Shown one piece after another: positions 2,541 to 26,995 of a DNA stretch of 35,077 nucleotides. Positions within the stretch are counted from its first letter, which is position 1. Every line of letters starts with the position of its first letter. Source of the stretch: a virus; the IMG/VR virus record IMGVR_UViG_3300018080_000382, positions 1 to 35,077 of that record, one strand, 5' to 3'. Under the pieces are notes generated by a model that was given only the letters and a program-made list of their open reading frames with translations, did not search any database and was not told where the DNA came from. The position numbers and the translations under genes are program-made.

Positions 2541-2564
2541 TTCATAATATCAAAGGAAAAAATC

Positions 2565-2954: not shown

Positions 2955-2957
2955 ATT

Positions 2958-2991
2958 ACTAATGACCTGTACTAAAGTACAGGTCATTAGT
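2958..2991 (+). terminator. Perfect 16-bp hairpin after gp16 operon
   Basis: Bases 2958-2973 and 2976-2991 are perfect reverse complements (16 bp) separated only by AA, so the practical loop is 4 to 6 bases. It begins three bases after the stop of the preceding gene. The run after the stem (TATTATGAG) is only weakly T-rich, so it may act as a terminator, an RNA 3'-end stabiliser or a processing site rather than a classical Rho-independent terminator. Confidence 0.65.
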
Positions 2992-3029
2992 TATTATGAG
3001 TAATAAATTCATTGTAGAGGTATATTATA

Positions 3030-3350
3030 ATGAATTATGAAAAAATAAAAAAAATCTCAGAAAAACTACAAGATTTATCTTCTCACTTAGAACAAATAAT
3101 ACAGCACAACTTATCAGAACAACAACAAAATGATCTAGCATACCATCTTATATTATCTGAAAAAAAGCCTAGTCACGGTTTATCTAAAAAAACTAAATCT
3201 AATATAGTAAAAAAAGCACGTGCCGGTAAAGACATAGGCAAAAAAGGCAAAGGATTCAAGAAAGTAAGAGATCAGGCTAAGAAATACGGAGCACGTGATC
3301 CTGATGCAGTAGCAGCAGCAGCGATGTGGAAAAATATTCCTAGAAAATGA
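3030..3350 (+). CDS. Small basic conserved phage protein with KxGKGFKK...AAAAMWKN tail
   Basis: 106 residues with GAGG before the ATG; an AATAAATT octamer at about 3002-3009 could be a weak late promoter. Residues 1-50 form a helical, coiled-coil-like segment. The rest is Lys-rich and ends in RDPDAVAAAAMWKNIPRK. That Lys/Gly-rich tail with AAAAMWKN is a recurrent module at the C-terminus of small proteins in marine phages. Its role is unknown; the charge suggests nucleic-acid binding. It sits alone between a hairpin and gp17, so it is probably a single late transcript or the first gene of the gp17 transcript. Confidence 0.72.
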   Translation: MNYEKIKKISEKLQDLSSHLEQIIQHNLSEQQQNDLAYHLILSEKKPSHGLSKKTKSNIVKKARAGKDIGKKGKGFKKVRDQAKKYGARDPDAVAAAAMWKNIPRK

Positions 3351-3367
3351 TTATATAAAAACATATT

Positions 3368-3375
3368 GCTAAATA
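3368..3375 (+). promoter_or_regulatory. Late promoter-like octamer GCTAAATA upstream of gp17
   Basis: GCTAAATA matches six of eight positions of TATAAATA. The predicted start near 3381 gives a 16-base leader containing GGAG before the gp17 ATG at 3397. Confidence 0.4.
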
Positions 3376-3396
3376 TTTTTCACACGGAGTAAAATC

Positions 3397-4986: not shown

Positions 4987-4989
4987 ATA
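4982..4989 (+). promoter_or_regulatory. Late promoter-like GATAAATA with predicted leaderless start
   Basis: GATAAATA ends five bases before the ATG at 4995 (CTTTT between). With T4 late-promoter spacing (start six bases after the last A) the +1 falls on the A of the ATG. No Shine-Dalgarno sequence is present, which fits a leaderless message. Transcript mapping would decide. Confidence 0.55.
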
Positions 4990-4994
4990 CTTTT

Positions 4995-6596: not shown

Positions 6597-6985
6597 TTAA
6601 AAACGAGCTTGTATTTTATCTAGTACATGAACTAGATATAAAAAGAAAAGTTGAAGTAAACTTTGCACCTGAAGAAGGCAACTTTGCCAAAGGACAAAAC
6701 GGAGCAACTTTTTTTGATACCGAAGACAAAGTGATAAGAGTTTTTATAAACTCAGAATCAGATAGCATGATAAGAGCACTGTGTCATGAAATGGTTCATG
6801 CTAAACAAATAGACGAAGGCAGATTATTTTTAGGCAAAATAAGAGGAGAGACTGTGATGACATGGGAAGGAAAAATGGTACCTCCACGTTATCAACGATC
6901 TGCTCCATGGGAGGTAGAGGCACATATACAAGAAAAAATTTTATTTAACAAACTAAGAAAACATTTTACGAAAAAATACAGTTGA
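6593..6985 (+). CDS. Small zincin-type metallopeptidase (HExxH)
   Basis: 130 residues, coupled to the preceding gene by an ATGA overlap. The motif ALCHEMVHAKQ holds HEMVH at residues 65-69, the two zinc histidines and catalytic glutamate of gluzincin/SprT-like peptidases. A later PWEVEAH (about 105-111) supplies the likely third ligand glutamate. Preceding strands (KVIRVFI) fit the edge strand that binds substrate in this fold. Phages carry such single-domain zincins beside structural genes; the substrate is unknown and could be a virion protein, the cell wall or a host protein. It is the last gene before the sigma70 promoter of gp32, so it likely ends the late operon. Confidence 0.78.
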   Translation: MIKNELVFYLVHELDIKRKVEVNFAPEEGNFAKGQNGATFFDTEDKVIRVFINSESDSMIRALCHEMVHAKQIDEGRLFLGKIRGETVMTWEGKMVPPRYQRSAPWEVEAHIQEKILFNKLRKHFTKKYS

Positions 6986-9383: not shown

Positions 9384-9838
9384 TGTCATGGTATTCTGAG
9401 GTAGTAAAAGATCTATCTAAGATAACTGATGCTATTTCTTTTTTTCTTGCAGAGCTAGAGTTAGCCAAACAAGAAATAAAACTAGCAGGAAGTATAGAAA
9501 AAGCTGCAGCAGATATACCTGGTATTTTTGAACATAGATTCTCTCAGTTGCAAGAGATAGAAGCTATATTAAATTTCTTAAATATCAGATTTAAAAAACT
9601 CAAAAGCAACTACTTCAAGAAATATCTAGAAAATTACCAAAGATCACTTTCTAGCAGGGATGTAGAAAAATATGTAGATGGCGAAGACGAAGTTGTAGAC
9701 TTTGAAGAAATAATAAACGAGTTTGCTCTACTTAGAAATAAATGGCTAGGGTTGATAAAATCACTCGACCAAAAAAGTTATTCTATAAATAATGTTATTA
9801 AACTTCGTTGCGCAGGCTTAGATGACGCAACACTTTAA
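9383..9838 (+). CDS. uvsY: Probable UvsY-like recombination mediator
   Basis: 151 residues (T4 UvsY is 137). ATG 9383 is chosen over the in-frame TTG three bases upstream; GAGGA lies at normal distance and the start overlaps the previous stop (TGATG). The protein is helical. It has SSRDVEKYVDGEDEV in the middle and a C-terminus KSLDQKSYSINNVIKLRCAG that parallels the T4 UvsY end (ALDAIKSRGFAIKHIQDMR). Position directly after uvsX supports the call. UvsY loads UvsX onto gp32-covered ssDNA as a hexamer. Similarity to T4 is low, so the assignment rests mainly on C-terminal pattern and synteny. Its stop shares TTAA with the convergent gene. Confidence 0.65.
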   Translation: MSWYSEVVKDLSKITDAISFFLAELELAKQEIKLAGSIEKAAADIPGIFEHRFSQLQEIEAILNFLNIRFKKLKSNYFKKYLENYQRSLSSRDVEKYVDGEDEVVDFEEIINEFALLRNKWLGLIKSLDQKSYSINNVIKLRCAGLDDATL

Positions 9839-10533
9839 TTACTATACTTAGCACGATGTATTTTGTGTATGAAGTGCTTTTTAAGAACAGGATGTAAAAA
9901 CGTATCTTCAGGTTTATCTTGTAGACCTGAAGATACAATGCCTTTGTTCAAATCATTTATTTCTATATTTTTATTTTGGATTATTTCACCTATAATGTGT
10001 CCGTCATAAGGACGTTTCATTCCTAGTAATTTATAGTTATAATAATATTCTTTTAGTTCATGTGTGAATGTTTCTCGTTGGTGATGACGTAGATTCCACA
10101 CAATAAAACCACTTTCTATGTGTATTTTGTCTTTTACTAGATGTTCTACTTGACAAGCCATGAGGTCGTTCTTACACAAACCAGTGATCGCATCTACATT
10201 TACGGTTGCTAGCGTTTCAACATCACCATCTAGCCAAATTAAAAAATCTTCTGAACATTTTTCTAGTTGGTCTATCATAACAAATGATTTATAACTAAAT
10301 TTTATAACCTTTTGATTACATTCATCCTTTACGGTATCTATAAAATTTTTATGATGAGGGAATCTTCGATCAAAATCAACTGCTACGATGTTTTTATCTA
10401 TTACTGGCAGATCAAAATCACAGTATATATATGCTTTTACATCAGCAGGCCAGTGTTCAGTGAATGATAGTAGCCATTTTTTTCCGTATAAATCATATCC
10501 TTTTTTTGAAAATGTAGTTATTACTCTAGTCAT
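9835..10533 (-). CDS. GT-A-type glycosyltransferase-like protein (paralogue family A)
   Basis: 232 residues from the ATG at 10533, which overlaps the upstream stop as ATGACTAG; an in-frame GTG at 10545 is less likely. The N-terminus RVITTFSKKGYDLYGKKWLL and the segment FSYKSFVMIDQ...DFLIWLDGDVET match, in order, the proteins at 15561 and 16306. DGD at 102-104 is the DxD metal/nucleotide-sugar site expected of GT-A enzymes. Donor and acceptor are unknown; cytosolic modification of a surface glycan or of a phage component is likely. It is the last of a four-gene minus-strand operon (12424 to 9835). It contains a 12-bp inverted repeat near its 3' end. Confidence 0.72.
   Translation of the reverse strand: MTRVITTFSKKGYDLYGKKWLLSFTEHWPADVKAYIYCDFDLPVIDKNIVAVDFDRRFPHHKNFIDTVKDECNQKVIKFSYKSFVMIDQLEKCSEDFLIWLDGDVETLATVNVDAITGLCKNDLMACQVEHLVKDKIHIESGFIVWNLRHHQRETFTHELKEYYYNYKLLGMKRPYDGHIIGEIIQNKNIEINDLNKGIVSSGLQDKPEDTFLHPVLKKHFIHKIHRAKYSN
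9902..9936. repeat. Perfect 12-bp inverted repeat near convergent gene ends
   Basis: GTATCTTCAGGT (9902-9913) and ACCTGAAGATAC (9925-9936) are perfect reverse complements around an 11-base loop. They lie inside the minus-strand glycosyltransferase coding sequence, about 65 bases beyond the uvsY stop. It could slow or end plus-strand read-through from the uvsX-uvsY operon. There is no T-run. Confidence 0.45.
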
Positions 10534-11188
10534 TGTCAAGTACACTCTTTACTTCTTGGTAGAAATTTTCAAAATTTTGATTTTTCCAATGTTCCCATAT
10601 TTCATGATCTCGTTCTTTTACAGACATGGCTTCTTGATATGTATTATCAATTTTAGATTTATTGAAATCAGGATGCATGTTTTCAACAATAACATCATCA
10701 AGATATCTACCGAATCTTTTATCTCTTTTGGTTAGTTCTTTCCAAATTACTTCTAAACAGTAGTGAGTAGTATGAGGGAAACCAAAAAAACCTGCCTTTC
10801 TTACTAGATCTCCGCCTATGCAAGGGTGACAGTAATTTCTAGGCTTTTTGGTTAAGTCATTGGCCTGTGATATTCTATTGTTGCCGGCAGCTTTTATTAG
10901 TTTTGTATCCCAGTTAAATGTTCTAGGTACTATATCATCAGCTAACAGACCATACCATGGTTCATTGGGATATACTCGAAATATTTCTTGCATTGCAGCA
11001 CCCAATCTTGCTCGATCACTGATGACTTTGATAAATTGTTTTGGGACTTCTATATTATCATATTCATCGATCATTGGGTCACAATTGTCTAGCCTAAGAT
11101 AAACAGGTGTAGATGACTTGGTTTCGATATAGTAAGATATAAATCGTTTTACACTTTGAGGGCGTCCTCTGCTCGCCAATAACCACAT
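10526..11188 (-). CDS. GT2-like glycosyltransferase
   Basis: 220 residues from the ATG at 11188, which has AAGGA seven bases upstream; a longer frame to 11215 would overlap the previous gene. The start MWLLASRGRPQSVKRFI is the classic first strand and P-loop-like turn of GT-A family 2 enzymes. PWYGLLADDIVPRTFNWD carries ADD at 83-85 as the DxD-like site. CIGGDLVRKAGFFGFP and RYLDDVIVENMHPDF follow and are typical of phage and bacterial members. It probably transfers a sugar from an NDP donor; the acceptor is unknown. It is third in the minus-strand operon and overlaps the next gene by eight bases. Confidence 0.75.
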   Translation of the reverse strand: MWLLASRGRPQSVKRFISYYIETKSSTPVYLRLDNCDPMIDEYDNIEVPKQFIKVISDRARLGAAMQEIFRVYPNEPWYGLLADDIVPRTFNWDTKLIKAAGNNRISQANDLTKKPRNYCHPCIGGDLVRKAGFFGFPHTTHYCLEVIWKELTKRDKRFGRYLDDVIVENMHPDFNKSKIDNTYQEAMSVKERDHEIWEHWKNQNFENFYQEVKSVLDND

Positions 11189-11198
11189 AACATTTTCC

Positions 11199-11804
11199 TT
11201 AAAATTTATATTCAAATTCTTGAATCACTTTATCATATCTTATATTTATGATATCTAATGATTCTGCAGTGTATACATTTTTATAGCTTTTTATTTTTCT
11301 TTGTGTTGATTTTAATCTAGTAGTTTCTAATTCGTTGTTATATTCAACATTTATTGTTTCACATATTTTTTTGAAATCCTGATGTAGATTCTCATATTTT
11401 ATTACTTGATCAATGTCTATACGATCTTTTCTAGTGTATAATTTCCAGTCATTGACTATCAATGCTTTATTGTTATTTTTTAAATCTTGATTAAAATCTT
11501 TAAATTTTTTAGGATAAAGTGACTTTACCCAATACCATTGACTTAATGTTTTGTCCCATGGATTTCTTTCTACTGCAAATTTAAAAAAATGTTTAAACCT
11601 GTCTCCGAAATTGCTGCGGATCCATTCGTGTCCACGGTGTTCACAAAATTCACTGATATTTTTTGGAGGCATTTGTTCAGGCTCCATGCCTCCAAAAATG
11701 TAATCAGTGCCCTTGAGTTTGTCTAGCAGTATTTTTTCTATACTGGATCCAGCTGTTTTTCTGGTTTTTATGAATATAAATTTATAATCTAGACTTATTA
11801 TCAT
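11199..11804 (-). CDS. Sulfotransferase-like protein (Sulfotransfer_2 type)
   Basis: 201 residues. FIFIKTRKTAGSSIE (residues 10-23) is the 5'-phosphosulfate-binding loop of the sulfotransferase family, with the TRKTAGSS form seen in carbohydrate sulfotransferases. FAVERNPWDKTLSQWYW (77-92) is the 3'-phosphate-binding motif, with RNPWD and Ser88. These enzymes move sulfate from PAPS to hydroxyls of glycans or small molecules. Neighbours are a second sulfotransferase-like gene (four-base overlap) and glycosyltransferases, so a sulfated glycan is the likely product. An APS-kinase-like protein occurs at 22426. No signal peptide or membrane anchor is seen, unlike many eukaryotic relatives. Confidence 0.8.
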   Translation of the reverse strand: MIISLDYKFIFIKTRKTAGSSIEKILLDKLKGTDYIFGGMEPEQMPPKNISEFCEHRGHEWIRSNFGDRFKHFFKFAVERNPWDKTLSQWYWVKSLYPKKFKDFNQDLKNNNKALIVNDWKLYTRKDRIDIDQVIKYENLHQDFKKICETINVEYNNELETTRLKSTQRKIKSYKNVYTAESLDIINIRYDKVIQEFEYKF

Positions 11805-12424
11805 TTTTTAATGCCAATTCCTGTGTTTTCATTGAAATTAAAATCAATGATATGCTGTCTTTCTATATTTTCTATTTTTTGAAACTTTTCTATTATATCC
11901 ACAGAGTCCTTGTCTCCGTAGAAAAATTCTATAGCTTGCGTGTACAAATAAGGATTATCTATTATTTTATCGTAGTCTAGTTTGAGTATATTAGCCTTAT
12001 CATTGAGTACCCATTTCGATATAAAAGTCATGTAATACGAACCGTTGTTTATAATACTCTTATAGAGTTTTGATTTATTACTTTTATCATATCTAATATT
12101 TTTATTAGATCCTGATATGGTGGAACCGTCAGGGCGAATATCTTTTTTCAATGCAGTATATCTATAATAAGCTTCACATTGTTCTAAAAAGTTACTTCTA
12201 TACAATACAAGATACTTATCTTCATTGTTGATAGGAAAAGTACCGCGGAAATCATGATTTTTTTGATATAAACTATTGTGTTTACAAGGACTAGTTTTGC
12301 AACAAGTGTAAAATTCACAGTATGAAAAATCTATGTTTTTTTCTTGACAGTAAAATTCAATAAGTCTTCGTGTCAGGTGTTGTCCGCTTCTTAGAAAAGA
12401 TATTATATAGTTGTTTTCTTGCAT
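11801..12424 (-). CDS. Second sulfotransferase-like protein
   Basis: 207 residues, first gene of the minus operon; AAGGA lies eight bases before the ATG. YIISFLRSGQHLTRR (6-20) corresponds to the SFPRSGxxxLR 5'-phosphosulfate loop of Sulfotransfer_1 proteins. YLVLYRSNFLEQCEAYYRY (71-89) corresponds to the 3'-phosphate site in which Arg and a downstream Ser are usual; here Cys83 stands where Ser is often found. A Cys cluster (26, 36, 41, 42, 47) is unusual and might bind metal or form disulfides. It is diverged from its neighbour at 11199, so this is not a recent duplication. The substrate is unknown. Confidence 0.72.
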   Translation of the reverse strand: MQENNYIISFLRSGQHLTRRLIEFYCQEKNIDFSYCEFYTCCKTSPCKHNSLYQKNHDFRGTFPINNEDKYLVLYRSNFLEQCEAYYRYTALKKDIRPDGSTISGSNKNIRYDKSNKSKLYKSIINNGSYYMTFISKWVLNDKANILKLDYDKIIDNPYLYTQAIEFFYGDKDSVDIIEKFQKIENIERQHIIDFNFNENTGIGIKK

Positions 12425-12444
12425 TTTTACATCCTTAATACTTT

Positions 12445-12452
12445 TATTTAGT
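12445..12452 (-). promoter_or_regulatory. Late promoter-like ACTAAATA for minus-strand glycan operon
   Basis: On the minus strand ACTAAATA is followed, at T4 spacing, by a predicted start near 12439 and a 15-base leader with AAGGA before the ATG at 12424. It lies in the 66-base divergent gap back to back with the plus-strand octamer at 12478. Confidence 0.4.
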
Positions 12453-12477
12453 TGTGCTATAAAAAATAAAATACGGT

Positions 12478-12485
12478 GATAAATA
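12478..12485 (+). promoter_or_regulatory. Late promoter-like GATAAATA with predicted leaderless start
   Basis: GATAAATA ends five bases before the ATG at 12491 (TCTTA between), so the T4-spaced +1 is the A of the ATG. The arrangement is almost the same as at 4982-4995. No Shine-Dalgarno sequence is present. Confidence 0.55.
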
Positions 12486-12490
12486 TCTTA

Positions 12491-13174
12491 ATGAACAAAA
12501 TACTAGTATTAGGCGATAGTCATAGTGAAGTTTGGAGCTTTATAAAAAAACGAAATCTTTGCAGTGATGTAACGTTCAATATAAAAACTGTAGCAGGAGC
12601 AACAGCTTATGGTTGCGGGAATCCTAACAGTAAAACCGAGTCGTATAAAATATTTAAAGAAACTATTAAACAAAATACAGACTCGGATTATGTAATGATA
12701 ATGTTAGGAGAAGTAGACTGCGGGTTTTTGATATGGTATAAATCACAGACATTGAACATCGATGTTCCTACTATACTCAAGCAAACAATAGACAAGTATC
12801 AAGAATTTATACAAGATGTAGTGCAGGAATATTTTTTACCTGAGCAAATAATACTTTTGGATAGTTCTTTACCGGTTATAAAAGATCAAACAGATAAAAA
12901 ATTTTTAACTGGAGCAAGATCGCAGGTGTCTGCATCTATTTCTGATAGAATTGACTTGACATTGGAGTTTAATCTAGTTTTAAATGATCTAGCTTTAAAA
13001 TTTGGGTATAACAGATTGGGTATTACGGAACATATTTTGGATAAGGATTTAAAACAAGTTCACAGTAAATTTTTAAAAGATGATCCCTATGATCATCATG
13101 TTAGTTCTAAAGCTGTTGCTAAAATATGGAGTTCTGAACTGGAAAAGTTCTTATATAACAAAAAGGAAAATTAA
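12491..13174 (+). CDS. SGNH/GDSL-type hydrolase
   Basis: 227 residues from ATG 12491; an in-frame GTG at 12476 lies inside the promoter octamer and would put five odd residues before the conserved start. NKILVLGDSHSEVW places the catalytic Ser10 in GDSHS (block I). GATAYGCGNPNS (36-47) supplies the block II glycine. MLGEVDCGF (71-79) is block III in the GEIDC form seen in sugar-related SGNH proteins, and DPYDHHVSS near 203-211 provides the Asp/His of block V. Such enzymes are often O-acetyl esterases or acetyltransferases on glycans, which fits the surrounding glycosyltransferases. It overlaps the next gene by one base (TAATG). Confidence 0.8.
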   Translation: MNKILVLGDSHSEVWSFIKKRNLCSDVTFNIKTVAGATAYGCGNPNSKTESYKIFKETIKQNTDSDYVMIMLGEVDCGFLIWYKSQTLNIDVPTILKQTIDKYQEFIQDVVQEYFLPEQIILLDSSLPVIKDQTDKKFLTGARSQVSASISDRIDLTLEFNLVLNDLALKFGYNRLGITEHILDKDLKQVHSKFLKDDPYDHHVSSKAVAKIWSSELEKFLYNKKEN

Positions 13175-13890
13175 TGATACCGATATTCATAGGATATGAT
13201 GCAAGGGAATCCTCGGCATATCACGTATGTACTAACTCAATAATCAGACATTCTTCGTTGCCGCTGAGTTTTACTCCGCTTAGTTTAAATAATTTATCAG
13301 AATACAATGAAGTTCACACAGACGGTAGCAATCAATTTATATATAGTAGATTTTTAGTACCTAGTCTAATGAATTATCAAGGGTGGGCGATATTCATGGA
13401 CGGTGATATGATAGTACGTGATGATATAGTTGACTTGTGGAATTTAAGAGATGATAACAAGGCTGTAATGGTCGCTAAACATGAGTACAAAACATGTATG
13501 AAAGAAAAGTACATGGGGGCTAAGAATGAAGATTATCCTAGGAAAAATTGGTCTAGTGTTATATTATGGAATTGTTCCCATCCTGTTAACAAACAAGTTA
13601 CGACTGATTTTGTAATAAATTCTACTGGTGCAGAGTTACATAGATTTACGTGGATAGAAGATTCTTTGATCGGTGAAATTCCACTAGAATGGAACTGGTT
13701 AGATGGAGAGTATGATTATAATCCTGACGCCAAACTGGTTCACTATACGCTAGGATTACCGGGATTTGGTGATTTTTCAACAGTGGGAAGTTTTTCAAGT
13801 GAGTGGCACAGAGAAAAAATATATACAGAATTTTGTTTACAAAACATAGATAGAATGTTTAATGATGCTAACAACAGTATAAAAAAATGA
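13174..13890 (+). CDS. GT8-like glycosyltransferase
   Basis: 238 residues. IPIFIGYDARESSAYHVC at the N-terminus is the GT8-type nucleotide-binding start. FIYSRFLVPSLM and WAIFMDGDMIVRDD follow, with DGD at 76-78 binding metal and UDP-sugar. NWSSVILWNCSHP and LVHYTLGLPGF complete the family pattern, the last being the C-terminal His-x-x-x-Gly metal-site region. This is the most canonical glycosyltransferase in the cluster. It is coupled to its neighbours by one-base and four-base overlaps, so it is co-translated with the SGNH hydrolase and the first GT-B-like protein. Confidence 0.82.
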   Translation: MIPIFIGYDARESSAYHVCTNSIIRHSSLPLSFTPLSLNNLSEYNEVHTDGSNQFIYSRFLVPSLMNYQGWAIFMDGDMIVRDDIVDLWNLRDDNKAVMVAKHEYKTCMKEKYMGAKNEDYPRKNWSSVILWNCSHPVNKQVTTDFVINSTGAELHRFTWIEDSLIGEIPLEWNWLDGEYDYNPDAKLVHYTLGLPGFGDFSTVGSFSSEWHREKIYTEFCLQNIDRMFNDANNSIKK

Positions 13891-14666
13891 TATGTTTAAG
13901 TAAAAAATTATCTGATACATATATAAATATGTTTGCTCAAGGAGCCGGTCTACCAATTCAAGACTATGATCAGGATATTCCTGATCAAGACATACTTATT
14001 CGAGGACTAGGAAAAAGAAAGCTTATACACTGGTGCTGGGAAAATAAAAAAACATTTTATTATATGGACAGCGGCTATATAGGAAATAATAGTTATGAAA
14101 AGAATCTCAAAGGCATCAAGTTTTGGCACAGAATAGTAAAAAATGATTTGCAACATCAAGGTATTATAGATAGACCTGAAGACAGATGGAAAAAAATAGG
14201 TATTGATATAGAAAAACGAAAATATGGAGAGCACATATTACTAGTCGTGCCTTCAGAAAAACCTTGTAAATTCTACGAAATAGATTATAAAACTTGGATT
14301 TCTAACACTGTAGATATGATAAAAACTTATACAGATAGAAAAATAAAAATAAGAGAGAAACCTACCAGGCATGATAGAATACATAATAAAACTATCTTTG
14401 ACGACTTAAAAGGTTGTCATGCTATGGTTACTTTGCAAAGTATAGCTGCTGTAGAAAGTGTATTATACGGAATACCTGCTTTTACATTAGCGCCTACTGC
14501 AGCAGATCCGGTATCAAATAAAGATCTTTCTGTTATAGAAAATCCCTACTGGCCTGATAAAGACTTGATAAACAAGTGGGCGTTCCATCTAGCATACGGG
14601 CAATATCATATAGATGAATTACAAGACGGTACGGCGTACAGGATGATATATGATGAAAAGTGTTAA
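13887..14666 (+). CDS. GT-B-like capsule/polysaccharide-type transferase (paralogue family B, copy 1)
   Basis: 259 residues. The C-terminal half reads YTDRKIKIREKP, CHAMVTLQSIAAVESVLYGIPAFTL, then DLSVIENPYWPDKD. This matches in order the proteins at 14650 and 17173. The pattern (sugar-binding His or Lys, then a Ser-rich turn before an E-x-x-x-GVP helix) resembles capsule and Kdo-type GT-B enzymes. In this copy the R-x-H-P motif of the others is REKP and the NSSP turn is LQSIAA, so it is the most diverged and perhaps of altered specificity. The start overlaps the preceding stop by four bases (ATGA). Confidence 0.62.
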   Translation: MICLSKKLSDTYINMFAQGAGLPIQDYDQDIPDQDILIRGLGKRKLIHWCWENKKTFYYMDSGYIGNNSYEKNLKGIKFWHRIVKNDLQHQGIIDRPEDRWKKIGIDIEKRKYGEHILLVVPSEKPCKFYEIDYKTWISNTVDMIKTYTDRKIKIREKPTRHDRIHNKTIFDDLKGCHAMVTLQSIAAVESVLYGIPAFTLAPTAADPVSNKDLSVIENPYWPDKDLINKWAFHLAYGQYHIDELQDGTAYRMIYDEKC

Positions 14667-15564
14667 TGTATATTATGCTGGTATAGCTGCAAAGAATAAT
14701 AAACCAGAAAAACGACAGGTGTTGGAATATTTCCATAAAGGCGTTCCTGGAAATCAAAGTACAGAAATATATGATCAATCTTGGCGTCCTTCAGATCTAG
14801 CAGTGATTCAAGGATGGGTACATGATAATAGCAATCTAAAGTCTCCGCACCTTCGTTTTAGAAAACATATTATAGAACAACAAAAAAATATCAACAAACA
14901 CGTGCTAGCCATAGATAGTAATTTATTTTTATATCGAGATGTTAATAATACCAAGAATTACCTACGCTTTAGTCTAGATGATGTGTTTCCTAAAAAAGGT
15001 AACTACTTTATAGATGACATAGATCCGAACAGATGGAAACAAATAAAATCAGATTTGAATATAAATCTTATGGATTGGCGTAAAAAAGGCGATCATATTT
15101 TAATATGTATGCAAAGAAACGGTGGATGGAGTATGAAAGGCATTCATGTCATGGACTGGTGTCATCGTACTATAAATGAAATAAAAAAATACACAGATAG
15201 GCCGATAGTGATAAGAGCACACCCAGGTGACAAAAAAGCAAAAAACTATTTAAGGTTTTCCGATGATGTCAAAGTAAGTAAATCACCGAGTTTACTAGAA
15301 GATTTAGATAATGCATGGGCGACTATCACATATAATAGTAGCCCGGGTGTTGCATCTGCTATAGAAGGTGTGCCAGTTTTTGTTACTGACACTGATCCTT
15401 GCAACAGCCAAGCTTATGATGTAGCGAATTGTGATTTATCTCTTATAGAATCACCGTTGATGCCTGATAGACAAAAATGGATAGAAAAGATATCAATGTC
15501 ACATTTTAATTTTCAAGATCTCAAACAGGGTATTGCTTGGGAAATTATAGAGAAGTATATATGA
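14650..15564 (+). CDS. GT-B-like polysaccharide transferase (family B, copy 2)
   Basis: 304 residues, overlapping copy 1 by 17 bases in another frame. The N-terminal domain has VNVYYAGIAAKNNKPEK and LAVIQGWVHD, and a central segment is DHILICMQRNGGWSMKG. The C-terminal domain has RPIVIRAHPGDKKAK, NAWATITYNSSPGVASAI, EGVPVFVTDTDPC and LIESPLMPDR. RAHP and NSSPG with a following Glu/GVP are typical of GT-B donor-site loops in capsule polymerase-like enzymes. Donor and acceptor cannot be read from sequence. It is coupled to the next gene by an ATGA overlap. Confidence 0.68.
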   Translation: MMKSVNVYYAGIAAKNNKPEKRQVLEYFHKGVPGNQSTEIYDQSWRPSDLAVIQGWVHDNSNLKSPHLRFRKHIIEQQKNINKHVLAIDSNLFLYRDVNNTKNYLRFSLDDVFPKKGNYFIDDIDPNRWKQIKSDLNINLMDWRKKGDHILICMQRNGGWSMKGIHVMDWCHRTINEIKKYTDRPIVIRAHPGDKKAKNYLRFSDDVKVSKSPSLLEDLDNAWATITYNSSPGVASAIEGVPVFVTDTDPCNSQAYDVANCDLSLIESPLMPDRQKWIEKISMSHFNFQDLKQGIAWEIIEKYI

Positions 15565-16316
15565 AAAAATTTGCAGCTATAACCAGTATGGATTATAAGT
15601 ATTACAGAGAGTGCGGTAAGTTTATGCTTATTAGTTATGATAAGTATTGGAAGTCAATCATGCCTCTTTACTTATACAACGAAGATAATTTTATACCTTC
15701 AGTAGATAGCATAATATGTCAAGGATGGGATCTAGGAAATGACTATCAAAATTTTCAACAACGACACACAAATAACAGAGTAAAAACATTTTCAAAAAAA
15801 GCCTTTAGTATTATTCATGCGATGAACAATATAGAATGTGATAGGTTGATATGGATAGATGCGGATGTAGTAATCAATTCAAAAATACATGTTCAATTAT
15901 TAGATCTTATAAGTGATGATAGTGTGTTGAGTACGCATTTCAGCGTGTGGCATGATTGGCCTGATGAACAATACCCTGACAGGGTAGCACATAGTTGTGA
16001 AACAGGATTTTTTATACTTAATAAAAATCACAGATTATTTACAGCATTTAAAAATACATATACCGACATATACGTGAATGATAAGACTCAAGACATGAGG
16101 CGTTTTTATGACGGTGAAGTGTATGGTAAAACTGTGGATATACTAGAAAAACAAGGAGCAAAAATGTTGAATCTTAATCCCGGATTACATAAAACTCCTA
16201 TATCTAGGAGTATACTTTCTCCTTATATGGAACATTTTAAAGCAGGGTTAAAAAACAAGATATTCAACATAGAAAAGGACAAAAAGAAAAAACAAAAAGA
16301 AAAGGCTAAAGCATAG
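15561..16316 (+). CDS. GT-A-type glycosyltransferase-like protein (family A)
   Basis: 251 residues from ATG 15561, which overlaps the previous stop (ATGA); an in-frame ATG at 15537 would overlap further and adds unconserved residues. FAAITSMDYKYYRECGKFML, FSKKAFSIIHAM and DRLIWIDADVVINS (DAD at 100-102) match the GT-A paralogues at 9835 and 16306. HSCETGFFILNKNH resembles the acceptor-side segment of these relatives. The last 17 residues are nearly all Lys, Glu and Gln, possibly a flexible basic tail. It converges with the gene at 16306, overlapping it by 11 bases at the stops. Confidence 0.72.
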   Translation: MKKFAAITSMDYKYYRECGKFMLISYDKYWKSIMPLYLYNEDNFIPSVDSIICQGWDLGNDYQNFQQRHTNNRVKTFSKKAFSIIHAMNNIECDRLIWIDADVVINSKIHVQLLDLISDDSVLSTHFSVWHDWPDEQYPDRVAHSCETGFFILNKNHRLFTAFKNTYTDIYVNDKTQDMRRFYDGEVYGKTVDILEKQGAKMLNLNPGLHKTPISRSILSPYMEHFKAGLKNKIFNIEKDKKKKQKEKAKA

Positions 16317-17154
16317 CTCGCCAGTAACTTTCGGTTCTATTAGGATTAACATCTTTAGCAAATGATTTTCCTTGTTTTTTTCTGTCACCTTTTAGGTGAT
16401 CAAAATATTTCCCTAGATCTGAATTGATAAAAGGATGTCCTCCTCCTCCGGTTTTTGCAGTCTTGTTAAAAATATCTTTTGCGTAATCATGAACGTTCTG
16501 ATTCTCGTGAGTGTATTTTCTTAACAGTGTACCGAATATAAAACTATCATGCCATTCATCGAGTGTAAATATACCGTCTTCGGCTTCTAGATACATGGAT
16601 TCAAATTCGCTGATAAATTCTTGACAAGTTTTTTGATTTAGGTTGAGACCGTAGAATCCACACTCAGGCCATGATTTTTCTTTTTTACCTCGCCCTATAT
16701 AAGTGATCCATGCGTCATTTGGTAATAGGTTTTTAAAATCTTGGTATGTAACCTCGGAATGAACCACAATATCAGCATCCATCCATACACACCAATCACG
16801 GGACTTTTGAACAGCATCAAACACTGCAAATGTTTTATTAGCAAATCTTACTGCATCCCATTTAAATTTTTTATGATTATCTTTGGGTCTTCTTTGCGGG
16901 AAAGGACATTCACCGTTAGCAAAAGGAACTCCTTGCCATTTTGCTTTAAATTTATTTAATTTTGTTAAATGCGTTTTTGCATCTAGTACTATGATTTGTT
17001 CAGGATCGGGATTAACAGGTTCACAGTCTTCGGTGTATACCAGCAGTTTTATTTTTTTGTCTACATTTTTGGCAAATGAATCAATGAACCTTTGTCCATA
17101 AGTCTTTAGACCAATATCATGGAATGTAGTAACAGTAGTTATATTTTCGTTCAT
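16306..17154 (-). CDS. GT-A-type glycosyltransferase-like protein (family A)
   Basis: 282 residues, the longest of the three GT-A paralogues. ITTVTTFHDIGLKTYGQRFI at the N-terminus, FANKTFAVFDAV and WCVWMDADIVVHSE (DAD at 126-128) define the family. WPECGFYGLNLNQKT and DEWHDSFIFGTLLRKY lie on the acceptor side. The end (HPFINSDLGKYFDHLKGDRK) is a conserved-looking C-terminal segment that I recall from phage relatives. It is transcribed opposite to its neighbours, with an 18-base divergent gap to 17173. It was perhaps gained or inverted separately from the rest of the island. Confidence 0.75.
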   Translation of the reverse strand: MNENITTVTTFHDIGLKTYGQRFIDSFAKNVDKKIKLLVYTEDCEPVNPDPEQIIVLDAKTHLTKLNKFKAKWQGVPFANGECPFPQRRPKDNHKKFKWDAVRFANKTFAVFDAVQKSRDWCVWMDADIVVHSEVTYQDFKNLLPNDAWITYIGRGKKEKSWPECGFYGLNLNQKTCQEFISEFESMYLEAEDGIFTLDEWHDSFIFGTLLRKYTHENQNVHDYAKDIFNKTAKTGGGGHPFINSDLGKYFDHLKGDRKKQGKSFAKDVNPNRTESYWRAML

Positions 17155-17161
17155 GTGTTTA

Positions 17162-17169
17162 AATAAATA
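17162..17169 (+). promoter_or_regulatory. Late promoter-like AATAAATA before 17173
   Basis: AATAAATA ends three bases before the ATG at 17173, so the predicted +1 is within two bases of the start codon. The overlapping TTTAAATA allows an alternative register. The gap to the divergent gene is only 18 bases, leaving no room for a Shine-Dalgarno sequence. Confidence 0.4.
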
Positions 17170-17172
17170 TGT

Positions 17173-18024
17173 ATGAAGGTATTTATCATGATTTTTAGTT
17201 TATGGAAAGGATACGGAGCAAAAGGTAGTTTACCAGTGTTTGATTCCTTTGAACAAGGAGCATCACGGCACGGGCATACTTGTGTGTATCATGATGAGTC
17301 TGCAGATGCTCATGTTATATGGAGTGTTCTAGAACGAGGTAAAATGTCTTTGAATTCCAGGTTATGGAATCTAGGAAAACCTGTAATAGTTCTAGAAACT
17401 AGCACGGTTCCTCTGAGTAATACATGGAGAGTAGGTCTAAACGGACTTACTAAAGATCACATAGTAATGTTCCCGGATCAAATCAAACGTGAAAATTTTT
17501 TATTTCCAAAGATGTCAGAGTGGAAATATAATCAACAAGGTTTTATATTGATTTGTACTCAGAACACCAAAAGTAAATTATGGCATGGAATGCCTGAACC
17601 CCGAGAATGGGTAAGGGAATTGATAACCAATATACGCAAGTTTACAGACAGGAAAATAGTTGTGAGATCTCATCCTAGATCTCCTTTTCCTGTATACGAA
17701 CATAATTATGAAAATGTTACAAGGCAAGTGCCTGCAAATAAACAAGATTTCTCTGATTCGTTACTTGATGCAATAGACAATGCGTGGTGTGTTATAAATC
17801 ATAATTCCTCACCTTCAGTAATTTCTGTTATAAACGGTGTTCCTGTATTTTGTGATAAAACTAGTTTGTCTAGTGCAGTTTCTAACTATGATCTGAGATG
17901 TGTAGAAAGTTTGAAATATCCTGATAGATCACAATGGTTTGAATGGTTGATGAGAACTGAATGGACATTGCAAGAAATATCATCAGGGTTGATATTTGAA
18001 AAATTCTATGATATAATGATGTGA
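17173..18024 (+). CDS. GT-B-like polysaccharide transferase (family B, copy 3)
   Basis: 283 residues. FILICTQNTKSKLWHGMPEP, FTDRKIVVRSHPRSPFPVYE, NAWCVINHNSSPSVISVI, NGVPVFCDK and CVESLKYPDRSQW match copy 2 at 14650 segment by segment (RAHP/RSHP, NSSPG/NSSPS, EGVPVF/NGVPVF). The N-terminal domain has MIFSLWKGYGAKGSL and a run ending ADAHVIWSVL. It is likely a cytosolic GT-B transferase of the capsule/LPS type. Separation from copies 1 and 2 by two other genes suggests either rearrangement of a tandem array or separate acquisition. A sigma70 promoter for the next operon lies in its last codons. Confidence 0.68.
   Translation: MKVFIMIFSLWKGYGAKGSLPVFDSFEQGASRHGHTCVYHDESADAHVIWSVLERGKMSLNSRLWNLGKPVIVLETSTVPLSNTWRVGLNGLTKDHIVMFPDQIKRENFLFPKMSEWKYNQQGFILICTQNTKSKLWHGMPEPREWVRELITNIRKFTDRKIVVRSHPRSPFPVYEHNYENVTRQVPANKQDFSDSLLDAIDNAWCVINHNSSPSVISVINGVPVFCDKTSLSSAVSNYDLRCVESLKYPDRSQWFEWLMRTEWTLQEISSGLIFEKFYDIMM
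17989..18017 (+). promoter_or_regulatory. Sigma70 promoter for the uvsW operon
   Basis: TTGATA at 17989-17994, a 17-base spacer and a perfect TATAAT at 18012-18017. The predicted start is near 18024 with a 26-base leader lacking a clear Shine-Dalgarno before the ATG at 18050. It is embedded in the 3' end of the glycosyltransferase gene and separates the glycan island from the uvsW operon. Confidence 0.75.
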
Positions 18025-21753: not shown

Positions 21754-22429
21754 AAAACCTTTTAAGTGTGAGTACTGTAATGCTGGTTTCTCTAGAGAAA
21801 CCACAATAGCTGCTCACATGTGCCAGCCTAAAAAGCGAGCTGTTCAAAAAAATGAAAAACGTGTTCAGATAGGCTTTTATGCATTTAATAGGTTTTACAA
21901 ACTTAGTGCGAATGCAAAAGAAAATAAAACATATGAAGAATTTTCTAAATCTCCTTTTTATAATGCGTTTGTAAAGTTTGGCAGCTTTGTTAATAATGTC
22001 AAACCTTTGTATCCTGAAAGATATATAGATCATGTTGTGACTAGTCAAATAAAAATTGACAAGTGGTGCGATGATTCTATTTACGAAAAATATGTAATTG
22101 ATTTAATACTCAGAGAAAACTCTGAAACTGCGCTAGAAAGAACAGTTATCACCATGAATGAATGGGCACAAGAAAATTCTAGTATATGGAACTTGTATTT
22201 TAAACAAGTTTCTGTAAACAGGGCTGTTTGGCACATAAAAGATGGTAAAGTTTCTCCGTGGCTGATCTTGAATTCCAAGACAGGCAAGGAGATGATTTCT
22301 AGGTTAAATGATGAACAACTAAACATGATATATCCCGTGATGAATCCTGATTACTGGGGCAAGAAGTTCAAGAATTCTTTGAGTGATATGCAACTTGTTA
22401 AACAAATAGTAAAGGAAGGTAACTTATGA
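21728..22429 (+). CDS. C2HC zinc-finger phage protein
   Basis: 233 residues from ATG 21728, chosen because AAGGA precedes it at good distance and because upstream codons of the open frame only shadow the previous gene. Residues 10-32 (KPFKCEYCNAGFSRETTIAA then HMC) form a C2HC finger with Cys14, Cys17, His30 and Cys32. The rest is helical, with conserved-looking FYKLSANAKENKTYEEF, RYIDHVVTSQIKIDKWC and LNMIYPVMNPDYWGKKF. It is likely DNA- or protein-binding; relatives in marine T4-like phages are unnamed as far as I recall. It overlaps the next gene by four bases (ATGA). Confidence 0.75.
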   Translation: MVSKNQTSEKPFKCEYCNAGFSRETTIAAHMCQPKKRAVQKNEKRVQIGFYAFNRFYKLSANAKENKTYEEFSKSPFYNAFVKFGSFVNNVKPLYPERYIDHVVTSQIKIDKWCDDSIYEKYVIDLILRENSETALERTVITMNEWAQENSSIWNLYFKQVSVNRAVWHIKDGKVSPWLILNSKTGKEMISRLNDEQLNMIYPVMNPDYWGKKFKNSLSDMQLVKQIVKEGNL

Positions 22430-22815
22430 AAATACTAATATACGGCGTACACGGTTCAGGAAAAACTTCGATTGCAGAACCATTCGCTAAATTAATTAAT
22501 GGTGTTTACTTAAATGAACATTCAGTTTACTCGGAATTTCCAGATCTAGATCTAACCGATGAGCTTGAAAAAGCCAAAATACTTCATTATTATTCCCGAG
22601 GAATAGAGCACGTGGGATTAATATCTGTAATAGATGCAGTATGCCCTACTCAACAGTTTCGTGATATTATAAATCCTGATTACACTGTTTGGATGGATAC
22701 AGTAAAATCAATAGATAAGTTTGAAAAACCTCAAGAAGTTGATTATCATGTTAGTGAATGGTTTACTGACACTCCTAATCAACTTCTGGAAGTAGTAACG
22801 CACTATATAAAATGA
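22426..22815 (+). CDS. Adenylylsulfate-kinase-like P-loop protein
   Basis: 129 residues, shorter than bacterial CysC (about 200). GVHGSGKT at residues 7-14 is the Walker A loop. DAVCPTQQFRDIINPDYTVWMDTVKS, continuing to FEKPQEVDYHV, is the pattern of the small phage APS-kinase-like family. CysC makes PAPS from APS and ATP. The lid region is largely missing, so it could be a trimmed APS kinase or a different small-molecule kinase. The presence of two sulfotransferase-like genes at 11199-12424 makes a PAPS connection attractive, but the genes are in different operons. Confidence 0.65.
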   Translation: MKILIYGVHGSGKTSIAEPFAKLINGVYLNEHSVYSEFPDLDLTDELEKAKILHYYSRGIEHVGLISVIDAVCPTQQFRDIINPDYTVWMDTVKSIDKFEKPQEVDYHVSEWFTDTPNQLLEVVTHYIK

Positions 22816-22818
22816 ATC

Positions 22819-23382
22819 ATGGATATCGACATTGATTTTGCTGACAGGCAACAAGTACTTGATAAAATAGAACACAGAAAAGCTAGCTTGGTTAATGGAA
22901 AAGTGCATAATACAGGTATATATATCAGTGAAATACCCCACAATCCTTTAAACAACACGGCTACTATAGATTATAAACTAGCAGAAGAACGAGGGTACTT
23001 CAAGATAGATTTTTTAAATGTCAACATCTACAAAATGATTCGTGATGAAGAACACTTGATTGAAATGATGAACAAAGAACCTGAATGGGAATTACTGCAG
23101 TATCCCGAGTTCACTGATCAAGTATTTCAAATATCCGGGCACAGTGAATTATTTAAAAAGTTAAAGCCTGGGAATATAGAACAATTAGCAGCAGTCTTGG
23201 CTATAATAAGACCTTCTAAAAGATATCTAGAAGATCATGACTGGGATACTATATTAAAAGAAGTATGGGTACCGCCGGCAGACGGGGGTTACTATTTCAA
23301 GAAATCTCACTCATTTTCTTATGCATTTGCTGTTGTTGTTCACATGAATCTTATATGTGAAAAATTAAAATCTGATATCTAG
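22819..23382 (+). CDS. Mini DNA polymerase III alpha-like protein
   Basis: 187 residues with blocks collinear with bacterial DnaE. MDIDIDFADRQQVLDKIEH matches the PDIDxDF catalytic pair of DnaE. HNTGIYISEIP matches the HxxGVVIS segment, and AEERGYFKIDFLNV matches the KFDFLGL block with the third catalytic Asp (Asp64 here). VFQISGHSELFKKLKPGNIE then LAAVLAIIRP match the GVFQ...LKP...ALYRPG block, and FKKSHSFSYAF matches NKSHAxAY. The PHP, OB and most finger regions are absent (DnaE exceeds 1100 residues). Activity is therefore unproven; it may bind DNA or the clamp, or act as a decoy subunit. It ends one base before a convergent gene. Confidence 0.7.
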   Translation: MDIDIDFADRQQVLDKIEHRKASLVNGKVHNTGIYISEIPHNPLNNTATIDYKLAEERGYFKIDFLNVNIYKMIRDEEHLIEMMNKEPEWELLQYPEFTDQVFQISGHSELFKKLKPGNIEQLAAVLAIIRPSKRYLEDHDWDTILKEVWVPPADGGYYFKKSHSFSYAFAVVVHMNLICEKLKSDI

Positions 23383-23383
23383 T

Positions 23384-23755
23384 TTATTTTGTTTTTTTAA
23401 CTAGTTGTATGGATTTTCTTTTTATTCGCTTGATTAGCAATTTACTAAGGCTAACACTAGGTCCTGCAACTACTTCAACATCTTTGGTGTTCATGTTTAT
23501 TATCGAGTATTTGAATTTTTCCATTTCTTGTTTTAGAAAAATGTTTATAGGTATTAGTCTATTAGATTCCCACCACCATATATTTCCCATAGACAAAAAT
23601 TCTTTTTTGTCTTCTTCGCAGTTTAGTTCAGTGTAAACATACATAGAAGTTATATAATTATCTTGGTTAATCATTAGTCCTATATATTCATTGTTTCCAT
23701 AGTTTACTAGACTTAGGAAAGGAAATTTGTTTGGTATGTCATCAGTTATTATCAT
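23384..23755 (-). CDS. Conserved hypothetical phage protein (WWWESNR type)
   Basis: 123 residues on the minus strand, isolated between plus-strand genes. NNEYIGLMINQDNYITSMYV, IWWWESNRLIPINIF and DVEVVAGPSVSLSKLLIKRI then KRKSIQLVKK are blocks I recall from conserved unnamed proteins of T4-like marine phages. The Lys/Arg-rich C-terminus suggests nucleic-acid contact. There is no catalytic motif. The start lies 18 bases from the divergent gene at 23774, and no Shine-Dalgarno sequence is evident. Confidence 0.72.
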   Translation of the reverse strand: MIITDDIPNKFPFLSLVNYGNNEYIGLMINQDNYITSMYVYTELNCEEDKKEFLSMGNIWWWESNRLIPINIFLKQEMEKFKYSIINMNTKDVEVVAGPSVSLSKLLIKRIKRKSIQLVKKTK

Positions 23756-23773: not shown

Positions 23774-24553
23774 ATGCAAATTATTAGATATTTAGTCTCA
23801 ACACGTAGAGAATTATATACCAATAATTCCGCTCATGTTACGGAGTATAGCCTAGTGTATCAAGAACCTATTAGAGTATATAAAGGCATTGACAATAGAA
23901 TAGAATTTATCCTAAAAAACGGCGATCAAAAACCGATAGATCTCAGTGGTTATAAAATAGTATTTAAGCTATTTGATAAGAGACAGGAATTAATTGCCGA
24001 ATACTCTTCAGATCAACAATATATCATAAAACATCCTCATACTGGATTATTTACCGTACACATAAACAAAAAAGACCTGACTAAAGTAGATATACAATAT
24101 CTTTATTATAATGTAATTTTAGAAGACTCTTCAAATAACCAATTGATAACTTATGCTAATACAGGGTCACAAGTCAGAGGTGAAGTGTTACTAGATGATA
24201 CAGCTTTTCCTTTACCTAGACCTAGTATTATAATAACACGATTTGAAAACACAGCAGATACATGGTACTCGGAAACTATAAATGCTGAACCTGAAGCTAA
24301 CGGAAATGAAGCATTGCATACTGCTGTAATATATGCAAACTCGGATTTTAAGTCCACGGTGTATTTGGAAGCTACACTAGATTCTTCGTTGGATAATACC
24401 TTCAGCACTGATTGGTCAACTATATTTCAACTAGAAATAGAATATCCTGAAAAACCAATTAGCTTTAATTTTAATGGAGTATATAATTATCTAAGGTTTC
24501 GTTTTGATGCTGATCCCAATCTTTATATTGAAAAGATAGCCGTTAGAAATTGA
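23774..24553 (+). CDS. Probable virion structural protein (tail/fibre-associated, beta-rich)
   Basis: 259 residues, beta-rich. The N-terminal domain has YSLVYQEPIRVYKGIDNRIE, DQKPIDLSGYKIVFKLFDKR and GLFTVHINKKDLTKVDIQYL, resembling BppU-like N-terminal domains of baseplate and fibre proteins. The second half has NGNEALHTAVIYANSDFKS, VYLEATLDSSLD and FNFNGVYNYLRFRFD, an Ig/jelly-roll-like pattern that I recall from marine T4-like structural proteins. Its late-type octamer and lack of a Shine-Dalgarno fit late expression. It is inserted next to replication genes, so order is mosaic here. The sigma70 promoter of gp61 overlaps its last codon. Confidence 0.72.
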   Translation: MQIIRYLVSTRRELYTNNSAHVTEYSLVYQEPIRVYKGIDNRIEFILKNGDQKPIDLSGYKIVFKLFDKRQELIAEYSSDQQYIIKHPHTGLFTVHINKKDLTKVDIQYLYYNVILEDSSNNQLITYANTGSQVRGEVLLDDTAFPLPRPSIIITRFENTADTWYSETINAEPEANGNEALHTAVIYANSDFKSTVYLEATLDSSLDNTFSTDWSTIFQLEIEYPEKPISFNFNGVYNYLRFRFDADPNLYIEKIAVRN

Positions 24554-24587
24554 CTCTGAGACAATTATGTGATATTATAAGTATAAT
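24550..24587 (+). promoter_or_regulatory. Sigma70 promoter(s) for primase-helicase operon
   Basis: TTGACT (24550-24555), 17 bases, TATTAT (24573-24578) gives a good promoter with start near 24585. A second, perfect -10 TATAAT at 24582-24587 would place the start at about 24594-24595, the first base of the gp61 ATG. The two overlapping -10 elements may give a short-leader and a leaderless transcript. Confidence 0.65.
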
Positions 24588-24594
24588 TCACATA

Positions 24595-25599
24595 ATGAAT
24601 ATCATGAGTACTCCTATTATATCTGAGATAATACTCTCATACTGGTCTGGTTCTAGAAAGACAAAACTAACACCTAGTGGCTGGGTGTCTGGCAATGCTC
24701 CTTGTTGTGTACACAATGGGACCGGAGCAGACAAGAGAAAACGAGGCGGTTTTATAAACGGGTCTGACGGAAGTGTGAGCTATTCATGCTTTAACTGCGG
24801 ATATAAAACAAGCTGGTCTCCGGGTAGAACTATTCCTTTTAAAATGAAAAAGTTGTTAGAGTGGATGGGAGTATCCGACCAGCAAGTTAGGGAATTATCG
24901 TTTGAAGCATTGAAGCAGATAGATCAAGAAAGTGATAAATCGATAAAAAAACACTTGATCAACTTCAAGGAAGTAAAATTTGATAATTCGGTAAAGTTGT
25001 TAGAAAAAGATTCTTGTAACAACAGTGATTCCGATCATATACTAGATTATCTGTCTAAAAGGTCCTTGAATCTCAATGACTATGATTTTTATTATAGCAC
25101 TGATCCTGCACTCAAAAATCGTATCATTGTGCCTTTCAGGTATAATAATTGTTTAGTGGGCTGGACATCCAGAACACTAGACAACAACGGAGTTAGGTAT
25201 ATTTCTAATCAACAACCTGGGTATGTTTTCAATTTAGATAATCAAGGATATAATAGAAAATATACAATAATATGTGAAGGTGTGTTTGATGCTATCTTGG
25301 TTAAAGGAGTAGCTTTGCTGGGAAGTTCACTAAAAGAAAATCAAGCTGAACTTATAAAGCGTTTACCTACAAAAAAAATACTAGTACCTGATAGGGATAA
25401 AAAAGGTAAGCAACTTATTGAACCTGCTATAGATCAAGGGTGGAGCGTTAGTATGCCCGACTGGAAACAAGGAATCAAAGACATAAATGATGCCGTTCAT
25501 GAATACGGAAGAATATATACAGTTTATTCGATCATATCATGTGCAGAATCTAGTTCACTAAAAATACAATTAAAAGCTAAAAAATGGTTTAATATATAA
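24595..25599 (+). CDS. 61: DNA primase gp61 (DnaG-type)
   Basis: 334 residues from ATG 24595 (T4 gp61 is 342). An in-frame TTG at 24550 is rejected because it lies in the promoter and adds unconserved residues. The N-terminal zinc-binding domain has CCVH at 37-40 and CFNC at 65-68. The TOPRIM core shows IICEGVFDAIL with catalytic Glu, LLGSSL, and ILVPDRDKKGKQL with the DxD pair, followed by KDINDAV. gp61 makes pentaribonucleotide primers in complex with the gp41 helicase, which starts one base after its stop. A second ATG at 24604 is also possible. Confidence 0.92.
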   Translation: MNIMSTPIISEIILSYWSGSRKTKLTPSGWVSGNAPCCVHNGTGADKRKRGGFINGSDGSVSYSCFNCGYKTSWSPGRTIPFKMKKLLEWMGVSDQQVRELSFEALKQIDQESDKSIKKHLINFKEVKFDNSVKLLEKDSCNNSDSDHILDYLSKRSLNLNDYDFYYSTDPALKNRIIVPFRYNNCLVGWTSRTLDNNGVRYISNQQPGYVFNLDNQGYNRKYTIICEGVFDAILVKGVALLGSSLKENQAELIKRLPTKKILVPDRDKKGKQLIEPAIDQGWSVSMPDWKQGIKDINDAVHEYGRIYTVYSIISCAESSSLKIQLKAKKWFNI

Positions 25600-25600
25600 T

Positions 25601-26995
25601 ATGACTGTAAGACAAAACACAGATTATGGATTCGATATACAAAAATTGTATCTAGAGATAATGCTCACTGATGGAGAAACCTTTGTACGTTGCCAATCTA
25701 TATTTGAACCTGAGTACTTTGATAGAAAGCTAAGGCCTTCTGCAGAGTTCATCAAGAATTATGTATTAAATCATAATACTATTCCTACATTTGAAATGGT
25801 GAATGCTGCTGCTCACGGCGACTTGATAAATCCTGGAAAACTTGAAGAAGCACACTATGATTGGTTGCTAGAAGAGTTTGAAACTTTTACAAGGCACAAA
25901 GCACTAGAGTCTGCTATATTAACTAGTGCTGACTTACTAGAAAAAGGAGAATACGGAGCTGTTGAAACTCTAGTAAAAGAAGCAGTGCAAGTAGGACTGC
26001 AAAAAAATCTAGGAACTGATTATTGGAGAGATCCTAAAAATCGCTTGGAACAAATAAAAGCTAGTAATGGACAAGTGTCAACAGGGTGGCCTAGTCTAGA
26101 CAAAAAATTGTTTGGAGGAGTGTCTAGAGGAGAGCTTAATATATTTGCCGGAGGATCAGGTAGCGGTAAAAGTTTGTTTTTGGCTAACTTGGGTGTAAAT
26201 TGGGCACTAGAAGGTTTGAATGTTATATATTTCACATTCGAGCTTAGTGAAAATTTGGTAAGTATGCGCGTAGATTCTATGATAACAGGCGTGCCTTCTA
26301 GAGAAATTTTTAGAAGCATAGATGACGTTGAAATAAAAGTAAAAACCATAGGCAAAAAAAGCGGAGCATTTCAAGTCAAGTATATGCCCACTGGAAAAAA
26401 CACCAATGATCTTCGGAGTTTTATAAAAGAATATGAGATAAAATCAAATAAAAAAGTAGATGTTATACTCATAGATTATCTAGATCTTATGATGCCTGTA
26501 GCTAGAAAAGTATCTGCTGAAAACTTGTTTGTAAAAGATAAGTATGTAAGTGAAGAGATAAGAAATCTAGCAATGGAATTGAAGCTTATATGCGTTACTG
26601 CTAGTCAGTTGAACAGAAGCTCAGTGGAAGAAATAGAGTTTGATCACAGTCACATATCAGGCGGAATATCCAAGATTAATACGGCTGACAATGTGTTTGG
26701 AATATTTACTAGTAGGGCTATGCGTGAACGGGGCAGATACCAGATTCAGTTAATGAAAACCAGATCTAGCTCAGGTGTTAATTCTAAAATAGATCTAGAT
26801 TTTAATATAGATACTCTGCGAATCACTGACACCGATCAAGAAGAAGAAACTACTCAATCTTCGACTCCAGGACAATCTATACTGGACTCAGTTAAACGAA
26901 ACACGGTATCAGAACATACAGACGAACCTAAAATCAGGGCACAAACAGAATCTACGAAACTAAGGCAATTTCTGAATGAGTTACCTGATGAATAA
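25601..26995 (+). CDS. 41: Replicative DNA helicase gp41 (DnaB-like)
   Basis: 464 residues (T4 gp41 is 475). The N-terminal helical domain is followed by the RecA-like motor. Features are TGWPSLDKKLFGGVSRGELN, Walker A GGSGSGKS (184-191), VIYFTFELSENLVSMRVDSM with the catalytic-type Glu, Walker B VDVILIDYLDLM, and TASQLNRSS as the sensor/H3 region. The C-terminus is acidic and Ser/Thr-rich. It forms a hexamer on the lagging strand and recruits gp61. A TATAAT immediately before its ATG is part of the gp61 end and is unlikely to be a promoter. The stop codon overlaps the next late octamer. Confidence 0.95.
   Translation: MTVRQNTDYGFDIQKLYLEIMLTDGETFVRCQSIFEPEYFDRKLRPSAEFIKNYVLNHNTIPTFEMVNAAAHGDLINPGKLEEAHYDWLLEEFETFTRHKALESAILTSADLLEKGEYGAVETLVKEAVQVGLQKNLGTDYWRDPKNRLEQIKASNGQVSTGWPSLDKKLFGGVSRGELNIFAGGSGSGKSLFLANLGVNWALEGLNVIYFTFELSENLVSMRVDSMITGVPSREIFRSIDDVEIKVKTIGKKSGAFQVKYMPTGKNTNDLRSFIKEYEIKSNKKVDVILIDYLDLMMPVARKVSAENLFVKDKYVSEEIRNLAMELKLICVTASQLNRSSVEEIEFDHSHISGGISKINTADNVFGIFTSRAMRERGRYQIQLMKTRSSSGVNSKIDLDFNIDTLRITDTDQEEETTQSSTPGQSILDSVKRNTVSEHTDEPKIRAQTESTKLRQFLNELPDE

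Follow-up and report, generated by a model that had tools for sequence, protein, structure and literature searches.

The window analyzed here was positions 1 to 35,077 of IMG/VR virus record IMGVR_UViG_3300018080_000382, a stretch of 35,077 nucleotides. It contained a plus-strand open reading frame (ORF) at positions 22819-23382 that started with ATG and encoded a protein of 187 residues. We identified this protein as the C-terminal half (C half) of a split minimal DNA polymerase III (Pol III) alpha subunit, comprising the D401-D555 part of the palm (E. coli DnaE numbering) and abbreviated fingers. The original prediction had described it as a miniature DnaE with collinear motifs and about one sixth of the usual length. 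Indeed, the named motifs were present in the same order as in DnaE, and the two lengths were 187 and 1160 residues. Moreover, the profile-profile comparison that had been proposed as a check matched the family of this ORF to DnaE with an E-value of 3.6e-7. The ORF also had a full-length match to PHROG 11778, annotated as 'DNA polymerase' (E 4e-60), a weak match to Pfam DNA_pol3_finger (E 2e-4, just below the family cut-off) and matches to several NCBIfam DnaE models.

Protein searches revealed homologues in 63 sequenced phages, including RaK2, PBECO4, 121Q, GAP32, CBB, Atu_ph07, PA5oct, Phosso and XacN1. The window protein was 33-47% identical to the proteins of these isolated phages. It matched members of PHROG 11778 such as RaK2 ORF124 and Atu_ph07 gp074 over the full length, and the gene order around them was the same. 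Additionally, at least 570 environmental viral contigs carried the C half, and the closest of the matches listed were 55-67% identical to the window protein. There were no internal stops, and the catalytic residues were invariant across homologues of about 33-67% identity. When closely related copies were compared, the ratio of nonsynonymous to synonymous substitution rates (dN/dS) was approximately 0.09, indicating purifying selection. Judging from this ratio and from the aspartates that were invariant in 123 distinct homologues, the resemblance to DnaE was far beyond chance.

The first conserved block was encoded right after the start codon. Namely, the DIDID codons (22822-22836, plus strand, as were all motifs of the gene) specified D2, D4 and D6, and this strand corresponded to PD401-x-D403-x-D405 of DnaE, where the three aspartates were themselves invariant in the DnaE set. 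Homologue and profile alignments placed H30..G33 (22906-22917) at DnaE H511..G514. The K62-I-D64 motif (23002-23010) was equivalent to K553-x-D555, with D64 as the third catalytic aspartate. It was followed by F103-Q104 and R131-P132-x-K134 (23125-23220), equivalent to F609-Q610 and R639-P640, and by the YxFKKSH...Y motif (23290-23322), equivalent to Y754, F756, K758, H760 and Y764. A profile-profile alignment with five full-length DnaE proteins assigned H30, G33, K62, D64, F103, Q104 and R131 to E. coli H511, G514, K553, D555, F609, Q610 and R639, respectively. Thus, the claim that all three catalytic aspartates were retained held true: D2, D4 and D64 corresponded to D401, D403 and D555 and were invariant in all 123 distinct homologues. 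In the same set, D6, H30, K62, R131 and H164 were invariant too, and G33, Y71, W90, P132, K134, F160, K161 and Y168 were essentially so. Accordingly, the C half shared with DnaE and PolC the palm strands bearing D401, D403 and D555 together with K553, H511, F609-Q610...R639, K758 and H760.

On the other hand, the palm was incomplete. The C half began one or two residues ahead of D401, and the preceding strand-GRGS-helix element was absent. A search of six relatives for the DnaE palm family found a second fragment, the N half, in five of them; the sixth was a 164-kb partial contig. The N half was about 170-190 residues long, had an invariant GRGS motif in 73 distinct sequences and a dN/dS of approximately 0.19. 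Its profile aligned without gaps to DnaE residues 320-393 (285-392 in PDB chains), ending 8 residues short of D401. In all 85 N loci the stop was uniform, with the sequence ending in '...DWREFLR*' or an equivalent within one residue of EFLR/EFL. Similarly, all 164 C loci started with '(M)PD-x-D-x-D' or 'MD-x-D-x-D' and had no fused upstream domain. Considering these uniform ends and starts, the break point was identical everywhere. It fell past DnaE residue ~393 and ahead of D401, separating the first strand with aspartates from the helix behind GRGS. No natural fusion of the two halves was present among the 164 C and 85 N loci. Neither half by itself completed the Pol-beta-type nucleotidyltransferase fold. 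Since the GRGS strand and helix were missing from the C half and were supplied by a second, distant phage gene, we rejected the free-standing polymerase that the original prediction had in mind. In bacterial DnaE and PolC the whole palm (GRGS and DxDxD) is in one chain, whereas in the phage enzyme the GRGS half is a separate gene.

The two halves co-occurred almost one-to-one in sequenced phages. All of the best 60 N-carrying phage records were among the 63 records that carried the C half. The remaining three were Slickus01, which had the N half too, Slicko01, and W12-3, a 109-kb record that was probably partial. Both halves were also found in five out of six environmental contigs of 181-424 kb (357, 364, 424, 223 and 181 kb). 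The spacing between the two genes varied from 11 kb in Slickus01 to about 208 kb. The C profile had no match on N-only contigs of 72-165 kb, which was uninformative because these contigs were fragments and the pair can be more than 200 kb apart. The shortest spacing was observed in Alishewanella phage Slickus01, a complete non-jumbo genome of 141.6 kb with the N half at 13731-14243 and the C half at 25082-25693.

Predicted structures were consistent with this assignment. The AlphaFold2 model of the C half, built with 97 sequences, was confident, with a predicted local distance difference test score (pLDDT) of 93.3 and a predicted template modelling score (pTM) of 0.81. In this model, two predicted strands carried D2/D4/D6 (DIDID) and D64 (KID). 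A Foldseek search against PDB placed Pol III alpha or PolC at ranks 1-15, with noise beyond, and a search among viral models recovered the same family. For the N half, the top six PDB matches were Pol III alpha, although the model was weak.

Based on these data, we consider it likely that ORF 22819-23382 encoded the C subunit of a minimal Pol III alpha made from two genes, which was probably a low-processivity accessory enzyme working beside a gp43-like replicase. The N subunit (~170-190 residues, with the GRGS strand and helix of DnaE ~320-393) would be produced from elsewhere in the phage genome and would dock on the C subunit (DnaE 401-405, then ~508-641 and 752-770). Together they would rebuild the Pol-beta-type nucleotidyltransferase palm, where two metals could be held by D2, D4 and D64. 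The N subunit would supply GRGS, and the C subunit would contribute the three aspartates, the equivalents of K553 and H760, and a part of the fingers. The resulting heterodimer may fill gaps, extend primers or carry out synthesis coupled to recombination next to the family B replicase. A short-patch accessory polymerase was likelier than a replicase because there was no thumb or clamp-binding domain. If the N and C subunits assemble into an active enzyme, it would be one of unusually small size for a functional member of the bacterial replicase family, in a phage replisome that mixes family B and family C enzymes.

Several observations weighed against this interpretation. The 35-kb window contained the C half and no ORF for the N half, so that the N partner of this particular virus was deduced from its relatives. 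The model of the N half was weak (pLDDT 69). The thumb region (DnaE 406-507) was cut to ~23 residues in the C half, and without a thumb processive synthesis was unlikely. The segment before YxFKKSH (DnaE 645-745) was reduced to ~25 residues with the loss of K655, R709, K714 and K715, all of which were invariant in the DnaE set, and there was no counterpart of DnaE past about residue 770. Furthermore, DnaE R390 was replaced by Glu in every aligned N half. In the ternary structures of DnaE, R390 and R709 touch the incoming triphosphate. Given the replacement of R390 and the loss of the R709/K714/K715 block, triphosphate binding could not be of the standard kind, and nucleotide binding has to differ from that of DnaE.

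The same two losses, the absence of a thumb and the presence of an apparently intact family B polymerase in these phages would also fit an assembly of N and C that was repurposed or inactive and served as a scaffold binding the primer-template or the clamp. We regard this as unlikely, however, since the three aspartates, GRGS and the equivalents of K553 and H760 did not vary among the distinct sequences compared (73 for N, 123 for C), as expected for an active site. The original prediction had offered two more possibilities for the C half. One of them was a decoy that competes with the host Pol III, an idea suggested by a DnaE-like protein being encoded by a phage. The C half alone would then compete with Pol III alpha for the clamp, tau or template. 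But the C half lacked the beta-clamp-, tau- and OB-domains that DnaE uses to contact its partners, and nearly every sequenced relative encoded an N half to match. A decoy predicts neither an N partner that accompanies the C half almost one-to-one nor invariant catalytic residues in both halves, and it was therefore very improbable. The other possibility was a remnant, considered here as a host-derived dnaE in decay, which took account of most of DnaE being missing. It failed on the same points and was contradicted by the dN/dS of ~0.09, the lack of internal stops, the invariant catalytic residues and the conserved synteny, which left it with next to no credibility.

Other DNA polymerases encoded by split genes include cyanobacterial DnaE, which has a split intein, and split phage gp43. 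The enzyme described here resembled them in being a polymerase in two pieces. Unlike in those cases, the jumbo-phage halves were minimal and the break was inside the active-site palm; neither half had a visible intein sequence at its ends. Compared to bacterial DnaE and PolC, which have PHP, thumb, full fingers, beta-binding, OB and tau domains, the phage enzyme lacked these domains and its fingers were shortened. The truncated N half was noticed earlier in CBB and Atu_ph07 (PMC5259590, PMC6102473), and Iyer et al. (2021, Viruses 13:63, PMC7824862) have already described a split minimal Pol III alpha in the jumbo phages of group 2.2. Thus, a C-family fragment in a T4-like operon was no longer unexpected. 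The window ORF was an orthologue of the C half of this published enzyme with nothing essential different, and it represented a new environmental member of a family that extended to the 141.6-kb phage Slickus01. What we added was the exact boundaries, their uniformity and the invariance of residues when environmental relatives were included, the pairing of the halves at nearly one to one, the Slickus01 case, the loss of R390 and of the R709/K714/K715 block, and a lead on the origin of the split. Iyer et al. proposed the split enzyme as a model for the ancestral Pol III (PMC7824862), and this idea is open to direct bench testing since the halves are small, their boundaries are exact and the partner has been identified. 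No experimental follow-up of the split enzyme was found in the open-licence literature searched.

The lead on the origin came from Lysinibacillus phage LC76P1. In this unrelated phage DnaE, the full-length gene (2298-6844) had an insertion of ~1.2 kb with an endonuclease-like ORF (3793-4638) exactly behind the codon for D401 (SLAD^IDIDF). The interruption site coincided with the jumbo-phage split. No Rfam intron family matched the interruption at E 0.1 or better when a self-splicing intron was looked for, so that the putative 'intron' label relied only on the endonuclease-like ORF and on the reading frame being restored, and the link to the jumbo phages stayed a lead. We tentatively suggest a further scheme: a C-family nucleotidyltransferase encoded by two genes, with no thumb and a changed triphosphate site, may have a dedicated catalytic task beside the family B replicase in a mixed B/C-family replisome, and its split may descend from the insertion of a mobile element at the D401 codon.

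The genomic surroundings of the C half confirmed a T4-like replication setting with gp32, UvsX, UvsW, a primase and a DnaB-type helicase. The conserved gene order was UvsX, UvsW, small genes, the C half, a convergent small gene, the primase and the DnaB-like helicase. In the window, the convergent neighbor was a minus-strand gene of unknown function (PHROG 11637, 23384-23755) that was not a part of the enzyme, and relatives kept a minus-strand gene at this position. The conserved replication context continued with the plus-strand genes for a gp61-like primase (24550-25599) and a gp41/DnaB-like helicase (25601-26995). Upstream of the C half, a gene for a P-loop kinase-like protein (PHROG 10255, 129 residues, 22426-22815) had its stop 3 bases ahead of the C-half start codon. 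The region between UvsX and UvsW (9835-18024) contained genes for a GT8 glycosyltransferase, a sulfotransferase and similar proteins on both strands, and this cluster was absent from the corresponding place in RaK2.

The statement that T4-type phages replicate with a gp43-type family B polymerase also agreed with our results, as such a gene was present in all six relatives checked (the window itself was a fragment). The family B motifs A, B and C were intact in most of the sequences read, namely those of RaK2, Paride, Phosso and environmental contigs, and the RaK2 enzyme has been described as gp43-like (PMC3622015). A division between two reading frames (gp276/gp277) was also apparent for the family B polymerase of Atu_ph07 (NC_042013, 212-214 kb).
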